NCBI GenBank assembly: GCA_016873435.1
Contig: VGXF01000004.1
Span: forward strand, 1-64,000
Length of the DNA: 64,000 nt
Origin: Nitrospira sp.
Lineage (GTDB): Bacteria; Nitrospirota; Nitrospiria; Nitrospirales; Nitrospiraceae
Direction of reading: 5' to 3'
Both the position numbers and the translations under genes were made by a program. The notes beneath the pieces are model-generated. The model was not told where the DNA came from and made no database searches. It was given only the letters and a program-made list of their open reading frames with translations. Each line of letters begins with the position of its first letter. Within the stretch, counting starts at the first letter, position 1. This document shows, one piece after another, positions 22,924-31,203 of the stretch.

Positions 22924-23175
22924 CTACGCATTCTTGGTCTTGGACCCCGTCGAGGTGCCGCACCGGGCACAGCGGTATTCGTAGAGGTCTCCGCTGGGCA
23001 ACACGAGCAACAGCCGCTCCCGAGTCGGAGTTGCCTGCTTACAGGTGGGACAGTAGAGTAACGAGGCTTGCAGGTCCTGATACTGGTCGGGAGGCCCCGG
23101 GCGAGTCGACGGACTCCGGCGCATGGTCGATCCGAACGGATTGAGCGGAAACCCTGGTTTGCGTGGAAGAGACAT
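22924..23175 (-). CDS. 83-residue zinc-ribbon protein
   Basis: A small protein with two CxxC pairs (LLYCPTCKQATP and YRCARCGTSTG) spaced 25 residues apart, fitting a zinc ribbon. The N-terminal 30 residues are Pro/Arg-rich. No specific family was recognised. It starts six bases after the stop of the upstream membrane protein on the same strand and closes a run of small genes that follows the radical SAM gene. Confidence 0.6.
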   Translation of the reverse strand: MSLPRKPGFPLNPFGSTMRRSPSTRPGPPDQYQDLQASLLYCPTCKQATPTRERLLLVLPSGDLYEYRCARCGTSTGSKTKNA

Positions 23176-23181
23176 GCTCGA

Positions 23182-23460
23182 TCAGGCCTCGATGGAATGG
23201 TCTTTGGCCCGTCCGCGGCACACCCACCAGCACAGACGCAGGACCTGTACGACAACATAGGCGGCCACACCGAGCAACAGGCCGTAGAGGCCGGCTTGGC
23301 TCCATGGCCAGCGTTCGGGCGCATGCAGGAGGGCCGCCAAGGCCAGATGCCCTCCTACGCCGAGGCAGAGGGCAAAGACGATCCATTCGCGGATCAGGCG
23401 GTTTCTGGATGAGGCACTCCCGCCATTCAGGCTCAGTGGATGGGTGTCGGCTGGCCGCAT
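23182..23460 (-). CDS. 92-residue two-helix membrane protein
   Basis: Two predicted membrane segments (WIVFALCLGVGGHLALAAL and AGLYGLLLGVAAYVVVQVL) with a short polar N-terminus and an Arg/Lys-rich C-terminus. No family was recognised. The ribosome-binding site is weak, but the frame is tightly packed between same-strand neighbours and has membrane-protein composition, which supports a real gene. Confidence 0.5.
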   Translation of the reverse strand: MRPADTHPLSLNGGSASSRNRLIREWIVFALCLGVGGHLALAALLHAPERWPWSQAGLYGLLLGVAAYVVVQVLRLCWWVCRGRAKDHSIEA

Positions 23461-23479
23461 GGGAACGGGCGGGGGAGCC

Positions 23480-23866
23480 TCAGGCCGGCGTATTCGTACT
23501 CACCGCACTCTTGGTGGATTCAATTTCCGAGACGGCAATGAGGCTGGCTAGATAGTCGGAGACAAAATTTAGCGCCTCTTCCCGTCCATCCGCCCGGCGC
23601 CCCTTTTCACGACGCTGGACGGAGAGCTCGTGATCCAGGTCCGATTTCACGTCTCCCAAGACGCGCTGAAGCGATGACGGTGTGAGGTTGGAGTCCATGT
23701 CCTCCAGCGCCTGACAGCGATCGAGCACCCAATTGAGTCCTTCGATCCGACCCGCGTAATGTTCCTGTTCGGCTGCATCGAGGCGAGCCATAGAGGTGGC
23801 AAAGGCCTGCGCTTCGTAGACCAAATTATAGAAGCTGGTGACGGCCTTTTGTAACGTTGAATTCAT
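23480..23866 (-). CDS. 128-residue helical hypothetical protein
   Basis: Preceded by AAGGAG eight bases before the ATG and by a sigma70-like promoter. The protein is soluble, acidic and largely helical (MNSTLQKAVTSFYNLVYEAQ, then long Glu/Arg/Leu-rich helices) and looks like a coiled-coil or four-helix protein. No family was recognised. Its location two genes downstream of the radical SAM gene makes it a weak candidate partner. Confidence 0.65.
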   Translation of the reverse strand: MNSTLQKAVTSFYNLVYEAQAFATSMARLDAAEQEHYAGRIEGLNWVLDRCQALEDMDSNLTPSSLQRVLGDVKSDLDHELSVQRREKGRRADGREEALNFVSDYLASLIAVSEIESTKSAVSTNTPA

Positions 23867-23898
23867 GCGTGAATCTCCTTGTAATTCGGCACACCCAT

Positions 23899-23926
23899 TC
23901 TATACGCCAGCGGGGGGTGGCGACAA
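23899..23926 (-). promoter_or_regulatory. sigma70-like promoter of the 23480-23866 gene
   Basis: On the minus strand TTGTCG (23921-23926) and TATAGA (23899-23904) are 16 bases apart; shifting the -10 to TAGAAT gives 18. It sits about 35 bases before the start codon. Confidence 0.5.
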
Positions 23927-23944
23927 GGCTTTTCCGACTTATTT

Positions 23945-24274
23945 TTACGTAAAAAGCAGGGAGTGAAACTCGTTCATGAACCCGTAATAGAGGGGGGCAA
24001 AATCCTTGAGGCTGTCGGGGCTGGTTTCCTTGAGCCGCTTGAAGAAAAACACCTGATAGCGGGGGTCCAACTGCTCCAAGAGATGGCTCAGCTGCGCCAT
24101 GGTGTAGCTGCCTGCCGGCACGCTCAGGGCGTAGTGCACCAGACGTTCTACGAACTGCTCCCCAACATAATCGCTGGTTATGAGGCCTTCCGGAATCTTC
24201 CCGCTGGCTAGGTACTCATCAAAGGGAACCGCCTGGGCAGCAAAGGGAACCGGCGCACGTGGCGGTGTTGCCAT
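23945..24274 (-). CDS. 109-residue hypothetical protein downstream of the radical SAM gene
   Basis: A soluble protein with a Pro-rich N-terminus, a helical middle (YVGEQFVERLVHYALSVP, MAQLSHLLEQLDPRYQ) and an aromatic-rich C-terminus (FAPLYYGFMNEFHSLLFT). GAGGACA precedes the ATG and a promoter-like sequence lies 45-75 bases upstream. No family was recognised. Its size, position and conserved-looking C-terminal tail make it the nearest candidate partner for the radical SAM enzyme, though it lacks a known leader-peptide domain. Confidence 0.65.
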   Translation of the reverse strand: MATPPRAPVPFAAQAVPFDEYLASGKIPEGLITSDYVGEQFVERLVHYALSVPAGSYTMAQLSHLLEQLDPRYQVFFFKRLKETSPDSLKDFAPLYYGFMNEFHSLLFT

Positions 24275-24405: not shown

Positions 24406-26274
24406 TCAATGATGCAGATTGGCCGGTAGTGCCAGCGTGAAATACTTGCCTTTTTCCTCATAGAGAATAGCATCAGCGGCAAGCCCCGCGAGCACCCCCT
24501 CTACAACTTCCTGGGAGCAGGCGGCAAATTCTTGGGTGTTGGTGAGTTCTTGGCGGATTAGTTCGACCGATCTCGGAGCATCGTTGCATAGCTCGATAAT
24601 ACGCGCGGCCAGTCCTTCGTACTGTGCTCTAACCGGCGCGCCTTCCCGCCGGCCGTCATAGACCGTGATAAAGCCCAGCCCCTTCACGTAATAGAGAAAG
24701 GGTTTGTCCGGAGCGGCATGGCGCCGCTTCCACTGATCTGTGAGATCTGTCAACTCTTGCACTACGGCAGGATCGACAGACTGCTCCGTTTCATATTCAA
24801 AGTCATAGGCCGTCTTGGTCAAATCAACCCTGGACGGGTCATAGACATATTCGTAGGCAATCCCGGGGCCCGTGATTTTCATGCCGTAGCGTCCCGGATT
24901 TGTATGGTAGGGGCTGAACCGCTCGAGCCACAGCTTCCCCACGCTTTCAGGAGGTGGAAGATGGAACAGCTTTGGGATCAGGTCGATTTGTCGGCGGTAG
25001 TCAGCTTCGTTTTCTTTGGGGAATCCCAGCAGGATGTTCCAGGAGATGTGGACATTGTAGTAGCTGCTCCATTTGAGACAGACGATATTCTGGAGGGGGC
25101 TGACGCCCTTGTCCATCTCCTTGAGTGTGGCTGCGCTGAGGCTTTCGATGCCCGGCTGCATCACCTTTGCCCCGCCTCTGGCGAGAGCTTGGATCTGTCG
25201 CTTGTTCAGATTACTCTTCGTTTCGATGAAGAACTCTAGATCCGCTCGCTCTTCTGCGAGCTTTCCAAACACCCCGTCAATATACGACATGTCAATGATG
25301 TTATCGACGAACCGAAACCGTGTAGCCCCGTAACGGGACGAGAGATGCCGGAGCTCCTCCAGAACTTGAGCGAACTTTTTAGCCCTGAATTTCATGCTTT
25401 GGGCATTTAATCCACAAAACGTGCAGTGGTGCTTTTCCCCCCACCAGCAGCCTCGGGCTGATTCGTAGAGCAGAATGCGACTGAAGTCTCCGCCTGCTCT
25501 GGGATTGACTGCGCGGAGCTGTTCGAAATAGTCGTCATAGTTCGGCGGCCCCATCTGTTCAAATTCCGTAAACAGCAAAGGATTGGGCGTGTACTGGATC
25601 TGGCCTCTCGATCGTCCGGCCACACCTGGTGGCAGCGTTCCGCCTTCGCCCCCGCGAATGTGCTCGAGGAGAGCGGGAAATGGTCCCTCCCCTTCTCCGA
25701 TCACCACATAGTCGATCCATGGAAAGGCCCGGAAGTATTCTAAGCCCATGACATTGTCGTAGTTGGCCCCCCCAAATACGATTTTGATCTGAGGGTACAA
25801 GTCCTTGATCAGCTTGGCTAAAGTCAGACTAGCTACATTCTGATGGAACATGGACGTGAAGCCAACTACCGCGTACTGTCCCCAGTCGATGGCGGTTGAA
25901 GCCCAGGTTAGGAAGCGTGGGGCAATTCGTTCCTCGATCTCCTGCAGGTAGGAAACCGGGGTGCCTGTTGATTGGGCGATCCGATCGCAGAGGGGCTTGA
26001 ACGTAGTGAGGTACTTTGCATGTTTGGGGTTGTCGTGGAAGAGGAGGCGCGAGAAGAGCCATTCTCCGATGAGTAGCTGTTGCTCGCAGAGAGTGTCATA
26101 GAGCGGAAATCCGACTTGTGATGCGAAGACAAGGTTCAAATAGTGGGCTCGTGAGGAAATTCCTTTCTGCTTCAGTGCCTCTGTGAGGGTCCCCAGTTGA
26201 ATGGAGGGGTACTTAGCATGCCCGAATGGCATCGAGACAAGACCGACTTCAGCTTGCTGAGTCTTGCTGCTCAT
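24406..26274 (-). CDS. RiPP-maturation-type B12-binding radical SAM protein
   Basis: A 622-residue protein with an N-terminal B12-binding-like domain (AVVGFTSMFHQNVASL, VFGGANYDNVMG) and a radical SAM domain whose cluster motif is C276-x7-C284-x2-C287 (ARGCWWGEKHHCTFCGLN). This unusual spacing and the GCWWGEKHHC signature are typical of ribosomal-peptide maturation radical SAM protein 1, whose members modify precursor peptides or are presumed C-methyltransferases. The ~110-residue C-terminal part is separate. AGGATACG precedes the ATG. It lies directly downstream of nxrAB but behind a terminator, so it is probably expressed on its own. Confidence 0.85.
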   Translation of the reverse strand: MSSKTQQAEVGLVSMPFGHAKYPSIQLGTLTEALKQKGISSRAHYLNLVFASQVGFPLYDTLCEQQLLIGEWLFSRLLFHDNPKHAKYLTTFKPLCDRIAQSTGTPVSYLQEIEERIAPRFLTWASTAIDWGQYAVVGFTSMFHQNVASLTLAKLIKDLYPQIKIVFGGANYDNVMGLEYFRAFPWIDYVVIGEGEGPFPALLEHIRGGEGGTLPPGVAGRSRGQIQYTPNPLLFTEFEQMGPPNYDDYFEQLRAVNPRAGGDFSRILLYESARGCWWGEKHHCTFCGLNAQSMKFRAKKFAQVLEELRHLSSRYGATRFRFVDNIIDMSYIDGVFGKLAEERADLEFFIETKSNLNKRQIQALARGGAKVMQPGIESLSAATLKEMDKGVSPLQNIVCLKWSSYYNVHISWNILLGFPKENEADYRRQIDLIPKLFHLPPPESVGKLWLERFSPYHTNPGRYGMKITGPGIAYEYVYDPSRVDLTKTAYDFEYETEQSVDPAVVQELTDLTDQWKRRHAAPDKPFLYYVKGLGFITVYDGRREGAPVRAQYEGLAARIIELCNDAPRSVELIRQELTNTQEFAACSQEVVEGVLAGLAADAILYEEKGKYFTLALPANLHH

Positions 26275-26347
26275 GCTCGTATCCTACCGTACTTTTCCGT
26301 GCACTGCATATAGAACGCGTTTGCGTGCAGGATTTATCAAAAGCAAA

Positions 26348-26377
26348 GGGCGGGGCACCCTTTCGGATACCCCGCCC
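26348..26377 (-). terminator. terminator of the nxrAB operon
   Basis: On the minus strand a 13-bp stem, with G-U pairs, closes a GAAA tetraloop: GGGCGGGGTATCC, then GGGTGCCCCGCCC, followed by TTTGCTTTT. It is a strong intrinsic terminator 29 bases beyond nxrB and insulates the radical SAM gene. Confidence 0.88.
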
Positions 26378-26405
26378 TCATGCTTGCCTGACGACTAACT
26401 GTTAC

Positions 26406-27695
26406 TTACAGCCAGTTCACGCGCTCGGCCGGCCGGATGTAGATCGGCTCTTCGACCTGGATGCGCGCAACTTCCTTGCCAGACTTGTTGAAGCCTAGCA
26501 CAGTGTCGTTGTACATCTCGAACCGCTTGCCGTGGATCTGGGTCTCGAACACCTTCGGACCCGGGATCACGTCATAGCGGAAGATGATCTGCTGGCTGGC
26601 GCGCCAGAGCTGCAGAACCGCGAGCAGCTCACGGCTGGGCACCAGGTACTTCTCGATCGCGTTGTCCACACCCGGGCCGAACATCTGGCGGGCATAGCCA
26701 CGCGGGCTGTGCCGCGGTGGGATGTAGTAGCCGTTGGGCTCCGTGCCCCACTGTGGATAGAGCGGCAGGGCCACCTGTTCCACGCGGATCGTGTAGTACA
26801 TCGGATGCCAGCGATCCTCCGCCCAGAGGCCGTCCTCCCCGATGCGGACCAGCGACTGCATGCGGATCTTGCCCACGCAGGCCGCCATGCAGCGGGTTTC
26901 CATCGGCTCGCCACCCGTCAAGGGATCTTTACCCTCGATGCGGGGATAGCAGGCGATGCACTTCTCCGAGACCCTCGTGGTCCCCCGGTACATCGGCTTC
27001 TTGTAGGGGCACTGCTCTACGCACTTCTTGTACCCGCGGCAGCGGTTCTGGTCGATGAGCACGATGCCATCCTCCGGCCGCTTGTAGATGGCCTTGCGGG
27101 GGCAGGCAGCCAGACAGCCGGGGTAGGTGCAGTGGTTGCAGATGCGCTGCAGGTAGAAGAAGAAGGTTTCGTGCTCGGGGAGCGAGCTACCCTGCATCTT
27201 CCACGGTTCATCGCGCGAGAAACCGGTCTTGTCGATGCCTTCCACCAAGGCGCGCATCGAAGTGGCCGTATCCTCGTAGATGTTCACAAACCGCCATTCC
27301 TGGTCGGTTGGGATGTAGCCGATCGCCGCCTGGCCCACCTTGGCGCCGCCGTCGAAGATCGTCATCCCTTCGAACACCCCGTAGGGGGCGTGATGCTTGC
27401 GGCCCACGCGGACGTTCCACACCTGGCCGCCCGGATTGACCTGCTCGATGAGCTGGGTGATCTTCACGTCGTAGAACTGCGGATACCCGCCGTAGGGCTT
27501 GGTCTCCACATTGTTCCACCACATGTACTCTTGGCCCTTGGAGAACAGCCACGTGGACTTGTCTGCCATGGAGCACGTCTGGCAGGCCAGACACCGGTTG
27601 ATGTTGAAGACGAAGGCAAACTGCCACTTCGGATGCCGTTCCTCGTAGGGATACAGCATCTTCCGTCCCAGTTGCCAGTTATATACTTCAGGCAT
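26406..27695 (-). CDS. nxrB: nitrite oxidoreductase beta subunit NxrB
   Basis: Electron-transfer subunit of nitrite oxidoreductase, carrying Fe-S clusters from the Mo site towards the membrane. Its 429 residues are the length known from Nitrospira. The cysteine groups are CLACQTC (35-41), CNHCTYPGCLAACP, CRGYKKCVEQCP and CIACYP / RCMAAC, the pattern of four Fe-S centres in NarH-like proteins. It has no own export signal, so it should travel to the periplasm bound to NxrA through the Tat pathway. AGGAGG lies eight bases before the ATG. It follows nxrA by 70 bases. Confidence 0.97.
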   Translation of the reverse strand: MPEVYNWQLGRKMLYPYEERHPKWQFAFVFNINRCLACQTCSMADKSTWLFSKGQEYMWWNNVETKPYGGYPQFYDVKITQLIEQVNPGGQVWNVRVGRKHHAPYGVFEGMTIFDGGAKVGQAAIGYIPTDQEWRFVNIYEDTATSMRALVEGIDKTGFSRDEPWKMQGSSLPEHETFFFYLQRICNHCTYPGCLAACPRKAIYKRPEDGIVLIDQNRCRGYKKCVEQCPYKKPMYRGTTRVSEKCIACYPRIEGKDPLTGGEPMETRCMAACVGKIRMQSLVRIGEDGLWAEDRWHPMYYTIRVEQVALPLYPQWGTEPNGYYIPPRHSPRGYARQMFGPGVDNAIEKYLVPSRELLAVLQLWRASQQIIFRYDVIPGPKVFETQIHGKRFEMYNDTVLGFNKSGKEVARIQVEEPIYIRPAERVNWL

Positions 27696-27765: not shown

Positions 27766-30700
27766 TTACACCTTGATCTTGATGTGCTCACCCTTCAGCC
27801 ACTTGATCATGAACTCGTTCTCCTGGCCCGGGGTGAAGCCCGTCCGCACCGGCTCCCACGGTCCGCGGGCGCCAATACCACCGTCTTCAGCCTTGGTGAT
27901 CCGGATCAAGCATTCCTTCGGGACCGTGTTGATCGCGTGGTGGTCGACCTGATAGCCCCACTTGAACTTCCAGGCTACTGCATGCTTGCCCGGCAGTGAG
28001 TCGGTCTGGTGCATCGGCATCAACCAGTTCCGGGTAAAGGACTGTTGGGCCCCGTACCGGAAGTTCGACTGATAGCCCGTGTCCACCGCGATGGCGCGCC
28101 CATCGGGCCGCGTCTCGTGGCCCTTCACCGACTTGGCCGTCGCGACATAGGGTGCGTGCTTGGCCATCGTCACGTGATACGGATAGGCCGGGTTGTACTT
28201 GGCCCGGATCATCAGCCGCGCGACCTTGTAGTAGGGGTCGCTGGGCTTCCATCCGCGGTAGGGCCGGTCCACCGGGTTGCCGTCGACGTAGACGTAGTCG
28301 CCGTCGTTGATGCCCCGGTCCTTGGCCGCCTGCGGGTTGATGTGCAACTGGTGCTCGCCGACCCCCGGGGTCCGCTTGTCCATCCGGTACGGATCGCCAA
28401 AGTTCGACTCGTAGATCTGCACCCAGTCGTTCACCGACCACTGGCTGTGCACCCGGTGCCGGGTCTTGGGGGTCACGCAGTAGAACTGGTAGCCCTTCTC
28501 CCACAACGGGTTGCTGTGCCGCTTGATTTCCGCCCACGGCAGCTTGATGTTCCGCACCGTCTTGTCGTCATGGTGCTGCGCCGTGATCGGGATGCCGTAG
28601 TCGTCCGGCCGGACGTACGGGTTGGTTGTCAGGATCGCATTCGGCAGGTACGGCGTGGCCTCCGGGCCTTCGCGATGCGCCACGAAGTTCTCGCCGTACT
28701 CGATGGCTTCCGGCTCGATCCGGTAGTTCTCGTACCGGCCCGACCGGGTCCACATCGGCTTGCTCTCGTTCGTCTCCTCCCAGAAGGGATGCCGCGGATA
28801 GGTCCGCACCATCACCATCCAACCCTTCTCGCTCTTCAACATCGTGTCCGCGTTATAGCCATACATGGTTGAGCTGGCATCCAGCATGCGCTGCACATAG
28901 ACGTCCACACGGTTGATGTACACCATGTGAAAGTAGTCCTTCATGCGCTGATCACCAGTGATCTCAGCCAGCTTGGCGGCCACGCCCGCGCCGGTGTCTA
29001 GGTCGTTCCGGGTGTCGTAGAGGGGCCGGATGCCGCCCTTCCAGACCTGTACCCATGGATTCGACACTGTCACCGTCATTTCTGGATAGGTGAACTCCAT
29101 CCAGGAGTTGCAGGCAAAGGCGACGTCGTTGTGGTTCACGTCCGACGTCATCTCAATGTCCTGCGTGACCAGCATCTCAATGTTTGGATCCACGTTGCGC
29201 ACCATATCGTAGTGGTGCTTAGCATTATTGAGTACGTTCACGTTGGCCACCCAGCGCGTCTTGCTCGGGGTTGGCATGTGGGTTTTGCCGGTGAACACCT
29301 TACGTCCGTACTTCGGGGTGTTGACGATCAGCGCCGTGTCACCATGGTTCCAGTACCCGACTTCCTCACCATAATAGTAGGACTTGGTCTTAATTTCCTT
29401 GCCGTGCGCGTTTGGATCCTTGGTGATGTTGAACGGATCCTCACCGGTATGCACACCGAGACCACCGCCCGACCAGGGGGTCGCCGTCCAGACACCCGCT
29501 TTGTAGTTGCCGGCCCAGGTATGCTGGCCGGTGCCAAACTTGCCCACGTTGCCGGTGATGATCAATACCATCGCCGCCGCCCGGGCAAAAATCGTCTGAT
29601 GGAAGTAGTGGCAGGTGCCTTCCCCGTTGTGAATGGCGGCCGGCTTGATCGTGCCGCTATCCCGCGCCCACCGGACGATGAGGTCCTTCGGGCAGCGGTT
29701 TACTTGATGCACCGTATCCAGATCGTAATCCTGGAAGTGCACGAGGTACATCTGCCAAACCGGCATGACGTCCACCTCGCGGCCGTTGAGTAGCTTGACG
29801 CGGTAGCTACCCGTGAGGGCTGCATCGATGCCGCTATTGGTATAGTGCCATCCTACTTGCTCGCGGTGCAGCGGCACCGCCTGATTCTTCGCCTGGTCCC
29901 AGACCATCATCCCACCCAAGCGCTCGATCTGTTCGGGCTTCAGCGTCTGCACCCGCCCCGAGTAGCTCTTGGAGAAATCCGGAAGTTGATAGCCCTGAAT
30001 AACATCCCTTGGATCCAGGTATTGCAGTGTGTCCGTGCGCACCAGAATCGGGCTATCCGTGTAGCCCTTCAGGAAATCGGTATCGTGCATGTTCTCGTCG
30101 ATGATGATCTTCATCGCCCCGCAGAACAGCGCGCCGTCGGATTCCGGCCGCACCGGCATCCAGTAGTCCGCGCGATAGGCCGTCGGGTTGTACTCCGGCG
30201 TGATGACGACCACGCGAGCACCGCGCTCGATGCACTCCAGTTTCCAGTGCGCTTCCGGCATCTTGTTCTCGACAAAGTTTTTGCCCCAGCTCGTGTTGAG
30301 CTTGGAGAAGCGCATGTCGGAGAGATCGATATCGGAGCCCTGGGCGCCCGACCACCATGGATGCGCCGGGTTCTGGTCGCCGTGCCAGGTGTAGTTCGAC
30401 CAATACCGACCACCCTGCGCTTGATTTTGGTCTACTTTGCGGATCCACGTGTCCAGCAGCGCGCCAACACCACCGTTAAACCGGGTGATACCCATCTTTC
30501 CGATGATGCCGAGCACAGGCATGCCGGCACGGAATTTCATTGTCCGGGTCCCTGCACCTTTCATCATTTCAATCATCTCTGGCGCATAACCCTGCTCGCG
30601 CAGCCTCCGCGCACCCGCCTCACCGCTGTACCGCTGCCCGATGACTACAAACGCCTTGGCGATATAGGTGAAGGCCGTATCCCAGGACACGCGCATCATG

Positions 30701-31203
30701 TCGTCCAGGAAGCGCGCGTTGAACTTATACTTGTTCTTGACCTCCGGGGTCAGCTCCGGCGAGCCGGCATCCATCCACTCCTTCCAGCCTTTGCGCATCA
30801 ACGGGCCCTTCAAGCGATAGGGGCCATACACGCGCCGGTGGAAGGTGAACCCCTTCAAGCACATGCGCGGGTTATGGGCAAACGTCCCGCGGTTGCCGTA
30901 GAGATCTTCATAGGTCTGGTGGTCGTAGTTCTGTTCAACCCGCATAACCACGCCGTTGCGGACAAATGCACGAATGCGACAGGCATGCGTGTCATTCGGC
31001 GAGCAGCACCACGTGAAGGATGAGTCATAGCGATACTGGTCATGATAGACCCGCTCCCATGACCGGTCTGGATAATCGCCGAGGGGGTTGCCCACCTCGA
31101 TCACCGGCTGCAGTGCGGTCAGGGCCAGTGCCTTGTCGGCAATCGCGGCTGCGGCGACCGTTCCTGCGGAGACCTTCAAAAATTGACGCCGTGACAGAAA
31201 CAT
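27766..31203 (-). CDS. nxrA: nitrite oxidoreductase alpha subunit NxrA
   Basis: Catalytic subunit that oxidises nitrite to nitrate at a bis-molybdopterin-guanine-dinucleotide Mo centre. The 1145 residues match Nitrospira NxrA. The N-terminus has a Tat signal (SRRQFLK at residues 4-10, hydrophobic core to about 27), so the enzyme faces the periplasm. Cys67-x3-Asp71-x3-Cys75-x39-Cys115 probably holds the proximal [4Fe-4S] cluster. The DMSO-reductase fold continues through VVVITPEYNPTAYRADYWM and PGVGEHQLHINPQAAKDRGI near the C-terminus. AGGAGG precedes the ATG. nxrC and a chaperone are not nearby. Confidence 0.97.
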   Translation of the reverse strand: MFLSRRQFLKVSAGTVAAAAIADKALALTALQPVIEVGNPLGDYPDRSWERVYHDQYRYDSSFTWCCSPNDTHACRIRAFVRNGVVMRVEQNYDHQTYEDLYGNRGTFAHNPRMCLKGFTFHRRVYGPYRLKGPLMRKGWKEWMDAGSPELTPEVKNKYKFNARFLDDMMRVSWDTAFTYIAKAFVVIGQRYSGEAGARRLREQGYAPEMIEMMKGAGTRTMKFRAGMPVLGIIGKMGITRFNGGVGALLDTWIRKVDQNQAQGGRYWSNYTWHGDQNPAHPWWSGAQGSDIDLSDMRFSKLNTSWGKNFVENKMPEAHWKLECIERGARVVVITPEYNPTAYRADYWMPVRPESDGALFCGAMKIIIDENMHDTDFLKGYTDSPILVRTDTLQYLDPRDVIQGYQLPDFSKSYSGRVQTLKPEQIERLGGMMVWDQAKNQAVPLHREQVGWHYTNSGIDAALTGSYRVKLLNGREVDVMPVWQMYLVHFQDYDLDTVHQVNRCPKDLIVRWARDSGTIKPAAIHNGEGTCHYFHQTIFARAAAMVLIITGNVGKFGTGQHTWAGNYKAGVWTATPWSGGGLGVHTGEDPFNITKDPNAHGKEIKTKSYYYGEEVGYWNHGDTALIVNTPKYGRKVFTGKTHMPTPSKTRWVANVNVLNNAKHHYDMVRNVDPNIEMLVTQDIEMTSDVNHNDVAFACNSWMEFTYPEMTVTVSNPWVQVWKGGIRPLYDTRNDLDTGAGVAAKLAEITGDQRMKDYFHMVYINRVDVYVQRMLDASSTMYGYNADTMLKSEKGWMVMVRTYPRHPFWEETNESKPMWTRSGRYENYRIEPEAIEYGENFVAHREGPEATPYLPNAILTTNPYVRPDDYGIPITAQHHDDKTVRNIKLPWAEIKRHSNPLWEKGYQFYCVTPKTRHRVHSQWSVNDWVQIYESNFGDPYRMDKRTPGVGEHQLHINPQAAKDRGINDGDYVYVDGNPVDRPYRGWKPSDPYYKVARLMIRAKYNPAYPYHVTMAKHAPYVATAKSVKGHETRPDGRAIAVDTGYQSNFRYGAQQSFTRNWLMPMHQTDSLPGKHAVAWKFKWGYQVDHHAINTVPKECLIRITKAEDGGIGARGPWEPVRTGFTPGQENEFMIKWLKGEHIKIKV

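Follow-up and report, generated by a model that had tools for sequence, protein, structure and literature searches.

Why should an enzyme of the type that matures ribosomal peptides lie directly beyond the genes for nitrite oxidoreductase (NXR)? This question is raised by a 64,000-nucleotide stretch of a Nitrospira sp. contig (VGXF01000004.1, assembly GCA_016873435.1; hereafter the window), where an open reading frame of 622 codons with an ATG start follows nxrAB on the same strand (Table 1). The initial annotation had placed its product among the ribosomal peptide maturation radical SAM proteins, a call that is borne out by profile search: hmmscan matched the protein to TIGR03975 over positions 2-606 of the 606-position profile (595 bits, where the curated cut-off is 281.85 bits; E = 1.6e-178), and its scores with lipid, hopanoid, and cofactor radical SAM families were far under cut-off. 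Orthologues from Nitrospinota also exceed the TIGR03975 cut-off (570.6 and 585.5 bits). The B12-binding and radical SAM domains are both recognized by Pfam, and the cluster motif C276-x7-C284-x2-C287 is shared by 35 of 35 aligned orthologues. The same Cx7Cx2C motif has been described in PoyB, PoyC, and the bottromycin methyltransferases, PoyC being a demonstrated valine C-methyltransferase that has a RiPP precursor as substrate (PMC5682303). The window enzyme can still be called a PoyC-type C-methyltransferase of proteins or peptides, and its characterized relatives, family, motif, and fold suggest that the reaction is a C-methylation.

Table 1. Features of the radical SAM gene, its product, and the adjoining nxr region (window positions)
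Feature	Position	Strand	Evidence
B12-dependent radical SAM C-methyltransferase (TIGR03975), 622 aa	24406..26274	-	profile match and orthologues in relatives
B12-binding domain, residues 129-203	25666..25890	-	Pfam PF02310, 32.5 bits (gathering score 32.1)
Radical SAM core, residues 273-428	24991..25458	-	Pfam PF04055, 43.8 bits (gathering score 29.5)
Cx7Cx2C cluster motif, C276/C284/C287, GCWWGEKHHCTFCG	25414..25449	-	sequence; invariant in alignment
C-terminal winged-helix domain, residues 533-622	24409..24678	-	AlphaFold, mean pLDDT 82.4
Intrinsic terminator between nxrB and the radical SAM gene	26346..26379	-	15-pair stem; z = -5.1
nxrB, nitrite oxidoreductase beta subunit, directly upstream	26406..27695	-	profile matches; ~70% identical to Nitrospinota NxrB
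nxrA, nitrite oxidoreductase alpha subunit	27766..31203	-	mostly 84-94% identity in Nitrospira, ~55% in Nitrospinota
109-aa gene, nxrAB-linked in Nitrospirales	23945..24274	-	homologues in relatives
128-aa gene, second of the nxrAB-linked cassette	23480..23866	-	homologues in relatives
92-aa gene, nxrAB-linked cassette	23182..23460	-	family f5, 21 loci
83-aa zinc-ribbon-like gene, nxrAB-linked cassette	22924..23175	-	profile searches; homologues in relatives

The enzyme is a core single-copy gene of the nitrite oxidizers with periplasmic NXR in two unrelated phyla. Single-copy orthologues were recovered from 49 of the 61 Nitrospirales genomes and, at 49-55% identity, from 53 of 77 genomes of Nitrospinota, the other phylum with a periplasmic NXR. 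A scan of contigs likewise retrieved full-length orthologues from Nitrospina and further members of Nitrospinota (51-55% identity), the best 80 matches listed coming from Nitrospirota and Nitrospinota only. Presence of the enzyme tracks that of NxrA in both phyla, a pattern confounded with phylogeny, as these are clade-wide traits, and with the fragmentation of MAGs. With NxrA counted at >=70% identity, 46 of 198 Nitrospirota genomes had both, 5 had the enzyme without NxrA, 2 had NxrA without the enzyme, and 145 lacked both; with NxrA counted as a piece, the corresponding numbers for the 77 Nitrospinota were 28, 25, 3, and 21, neither table being corrected for kinship. Poor binning of nxr genes is a known problem in Nitrospinota, and NxrA of the Nitrospina type has been placed in the class Nitrospinia (PMC10839748); both points fit the pattern in this phylum. 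The four genomes of the Nitrospirales family f4 lack the enzyme and also gave no detectable NxrA. Conversely, two nxr-positive Nitrospirales have no enzyme, including one genome, G057, that is 99% complete in 7 contigs. A literature search found no paper naming Nitrospira, Nitrospina, and radical SAM together. One Nitrospiraceae genome (G159; single contig, 99% complete) has the enzyme and no NxrA at E<=1e-60, and represents either a non-nitrite-oxidizing relative or an assembly gap.

In a tree inferred from 624 columns under a PMSF model, the 49 nitrite-oxidizer sequences form one clade with full support (100/100) and a long stem, made up of a Nitrospirales (98/94) and a Nitrospinota (100/99) part, with the precursor-linked relatives from Sinorhizobium meliloti and Streptomyces globosus outside it. 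The outgroup branches are long, and our claim is limited to the unity of the nitrite-oxidizer clade. The Nitrospirales enzyme shares 52% identity with its Nitrospinota counterpart and less (37%) with the other Nitrospirota homologues sampled. This identity pattern is compatible with a transfer between nitrite oxidizers of the type described for nxr, in phyla that have exchanged many genes (PMC3578206). What is new here is the existence of single-copy orthologues in Nitrospinota that belong to one clade with the Nitrospirales enzymes and are repeatedly linked to nxr. Two MAG records titled Nitrospirae or Nitrospirota (L184, ERR599099_bin.62, and L192, CSMAG_575) are Nitrospinota according to both genome grouping and the enzyme tree, and their titles look wrong.

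The family TIGR03975 is a known one, but the precursor feature behind its name is missing in the window enzyme. Neither NHLP (TIGR03793) nor Nif11 (PF07862) leaders were found in the window's genome, they are absent from nearly all searched relatives with the enzyme, and the two 131-bp gaps flanking the gene contain only open reading frames of chance length (<=53 aa, or antisense). The earlier impression that no precursor was recognizable at this locus now extends, for these two leader types, to the whole genome. No RiPP cluster set of precursor, protease, and exporter was found around the gene, whose neighbors are nxrAB and a cassette of 109-, 128-, 92-, and 83-aa genes. Clustering of open reading frames of at least 30 aa across 38 loci revealed no precursor-like conserved small gene at the enzyme gene, the only families being a carbinolamine dehydratase, an AhpD-like protein, and an 89-aa gene, all housekeeping-like. 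In other Nitrospirales, the enzyme gene most often follows the gene for pterin carbinolamine dehydratase (gap mostly -23 to 45 bp), and at many of these loci the next gene begins 9 to 42 bp past it, so that there is no room for a precursor gene.

These results lower the reading of the window protein as a RiPP enzyme. It might nevertheless work in trans on an unrecognized precursor encoded elsewhere, yielding a modified peptide of nitrite oxidizers, much as PoyC, characterized with the same motif, modifies a RiPP precursor; the winged-helix C-terminal domain could bind a leader, and distant family members adjoin Nif11 proteins (S. meliloti, 33% identity, on a plasmid) or a pheganomycin-family precursor (S. 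globosus, 40%, also on a plasmid). NHLP-type leaders do occur within the order, in G038, G041, and G052 (L090-L093), all three from genus g24. However, those of G052 (contig C28) are at 18.8 and 48.9 kb with the enzyme gene at 175 kb, and that of G041 is at 2.20 Mb with the enzyme gene at 1.96 Mb, distances of more than 100 kb that point to separate RiPP loci in these genomes. RiPP clusters are, moreover, usually patchy in distribution, whereas this gene is nearly universal, and we consider an in-trans peptide substrate unlikely.

The AlphaFold model of the protein (pLDDT 85.6) is closest in fold to the cobalamin radical SAM enzymes OxsB, TokK, and TsrM, with MgmA also matched. The structural neighbors TokK, OxsB, and CysS have small molecules or carrier-bound intermediates as substrates, and this proximity, together with the dehydratase coupling in Nitrospirales, would accord with methylation of a small molecule, a lipid, or a cofactor (a pterin-linked one, for example) in place of a protein. 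Yet the RiPP-linked members of TIGR03975 modify peptides, the lipid, hopanoid, and cofactor families are those that scored so poorly against the window protein, and the coupling of dehydratase and enzyme genes was not seen in Nitrospinota, all of which makes a non-protein substrate unlikely. No dehydratase gene was found within the 64-kb window either. NXR itself is a Mo enzyme. With the role in Mo-cofactor metabolism annotated for the dehydratase family (PMC3223725), the coupling is also weakly compatible with a Mo-enzyme substrate. Where the dehydratase gene is directly upstream (L055, L056, L060, L066, and others), its product has a CxPCRGGxPP N-terminus. As for the C-terminal 90 residues of the radical SAM protein, the Foldseek matches listed were generic winged helices, all of them short of E < 0.001 and none of them a PqqD protein. 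Such matches are too unspecific to assign the segment as a PqqD-like RRE; the modeled domain is a possible candidate for substrate recognition.

Linkage of the enzyme gene to nxr occurs in some lineages only, namely in the window and g5, in six Nitrospinota genomes, and, differently arranged, in G287 of the same phylum. In the window lineage the gene comes directly after nxrB, 131 bp downstream, and the terminator noted between them in the initial annotation is a strong one, which makes it unlikely that the radical SAM gene is simply part of the nxrAB transcript. The six Nitrospinota genomes (G235, G291, G265, G267, G268, and G294) share the order f4, radical SAM gene, TPR protein gene, f7, nxrA, nxrB, with nxrA truncated at the contig end in some of them; since they belong to two separate clades of the enzyme tree, this order is probably ancestral. 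In G287, an nxrA-nxrB-nxrC cluster and the radical SAM gene meet tail to tail at nxrC. In most Nitrospira (N. defluvii and N. moscoviensis, for instance) it is far from nxr. That observation, the presence of the enzyme in some genomes without detected nxrA, and the documented exchange of many genes between the phyla (PMC3578206) could all be accommodated by a lineage-specific housekeeping enzyme with no tie to NXR, shared through ancestral exchange between Nitrospira and Nitrospina and placed beside nxr by chance. Chance would then have to account for the enzyme gene and nxr being neighbors in three separate cases across two phyla, and for the 7 of 28 Nitrospinota genomes with both in which the enzyme lies within ~8 kb of nxr, against ~1% expected per genome by a rough estimate uncorrected for relatedness; an equally rough p of ~0.002 applies to 2 of ~6 distinct arrangements, counted by eye, being nxr-linked. 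A housekeeping role of this kind appears quite unlikely. Nitrospinota nxr neighborhoods also contain, near the enzyme gene, a second B12-binding radical SAM gene (L218:15-1700 and L219:1339-3144) whose best match is a sub-threshold one to the PhpK family TIGR04479, and between the two genes a 660-aa protein with no Pfam match is encoded.

A core gene with no peptide partner and with repeated adjacency to nxr suggests a target protein within the nitrite-oxidizing machinery. Our preferred explanation, which we hold tentatively and rate a little short of an even chance, is an orphan PoyC-type B12 radical SAM methyltransferase that is now dedicated to a protein of this machinery in nitrite oxidizers with periplasmic NXR. 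An enzyme without a precursor would in this way have become a dedicated maturation enzyme of these organisms. As in PoyC, reductive cleavage of SAM would be followed by hydrogen abstraction, and the methyl group would pass from methylcobalamin to an unactivated carbon (PMC5682303). The hypothetical acceptor would be a protein of the nitrite-oxidation machinery instead of a RiPP precursor, the simplest candidates being a subunit of NXR or a protein associated with it, methylated in the cytoplasm ahead of export. The idea in the initial annotation that a nitrite oxidizer might carry a protein modified in an unusual way is plausible. A bolder version, possible but doubtful, is that periplasmic NXR carries an unrecognized carbon-methylated residue introduced by this enzyme, nitrite oxidation in Nitrospira and Nitrospina being directly B12-dependent as a result. 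The paper on the Kuenenia NXR structure reported no methylated residue, although methylation was not among the modifications allowed in its mass-spectrometry search.

Periplasmic nitrite oxidoreductase is the source of much of the world's nitrate. If the proposal is true, evolution has recruited an enzyme of RiPP type to the maturation of an enzyme central to the nitrogen cycle, B12 supply would directly limit nitrite oxidation, and the presence of a supposed antibiotic-pathway enzyme among the core genes of nitrite oxidizers would be explained; genome-mining annotation would miscall such a core gene as a biosynthetic cluster. The window enzyme resembles the PoyB/PoyC-type members of TIGR03975 (rSAM_ocin_1) in its full-length profile match, domain composition, and cluster motif, but differs from them in having no linked precursor, leader, or export genes, in its near-universal single-copy occurrence, and in forming a separate, long-stemmed clade restricted, among the sampled genomes, to two phyla of nitrite oxidizers. 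A parallel in biological setting is offered by MgmA and Mmp10, the methylases of methyl-coenzyme M reductase, which are also B12 radical SAM enzymes that co-occur with the genes of an energy-metabolism metalloenzyme and cluster with them in some lineages; the reasoning behind our hypothesis is also that which tied MgmA to its target, from its phylogenetic distribution and the clustering of its gene with mcr (PMC11796369). The window enzyme, by contrast, belongs to a different radical SAM family, its linkage to nxr is confined to some lineages, and its substrate is hypothetical. As a candidate NXR maturation factor in Nitrospira and Nitrospina, it would join the TorD-like chaperone and the other NXR-associated genes compared among Nitrospira, Nitrospina, and Kuenenia, although it is not mentioned in that comparison (PMC3578206).

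The four small genes following the radical SAM gene, which the initial annotation had listed as unassigned, all prove to be conserved families in relatives. Their cassette stands behind nxrB in many Nitrospirales, with further genes after it that include a Trm112-like and a DUF502 gene. Across the order, the 109-residue protein shares 60-91% and the 128-residue protein 72-90% identity with its counterpart in the window. Insertion of the radical SAM gene at the cassette is confined to the window genome and its nearest sister group. Only in the window genome and G023 does the radical SAM gene sit between nxrB and the cassette (in G004, at a contig end, it precedes the cassette), which suggests that it moved into this site or is a visitor there. 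The proposal that the 109- or 128-residue product is the substrate or partner, prompted by same-strand adjacency that holds in the window and two sister genomes, is largely refuted and highly improbable: both genes follow nxrAB where the radical SAM gene is elsewhere, homologues of the enzyme occurring without either gene linked to them, G057 retains nxr and the cassette with no radical SAM orthologue, and the 109-residue protein has no match in the 77 Nitrospinota genomes, 53 of which have the enzyme, so that neither is a conserved substrate. Homologues of the 109-128 cassette were also not found near nxr in the Nitrospinota loci examined. The two proteins, which have no Pfam or NCBIfam match at the thresholds used and were not detected in f4, the family of the order without nxr, are highly conserved, and the products of the whole 109/128/92/83-aa cassette (22924-24274) are themselves candidates for proteins associated with NXR.
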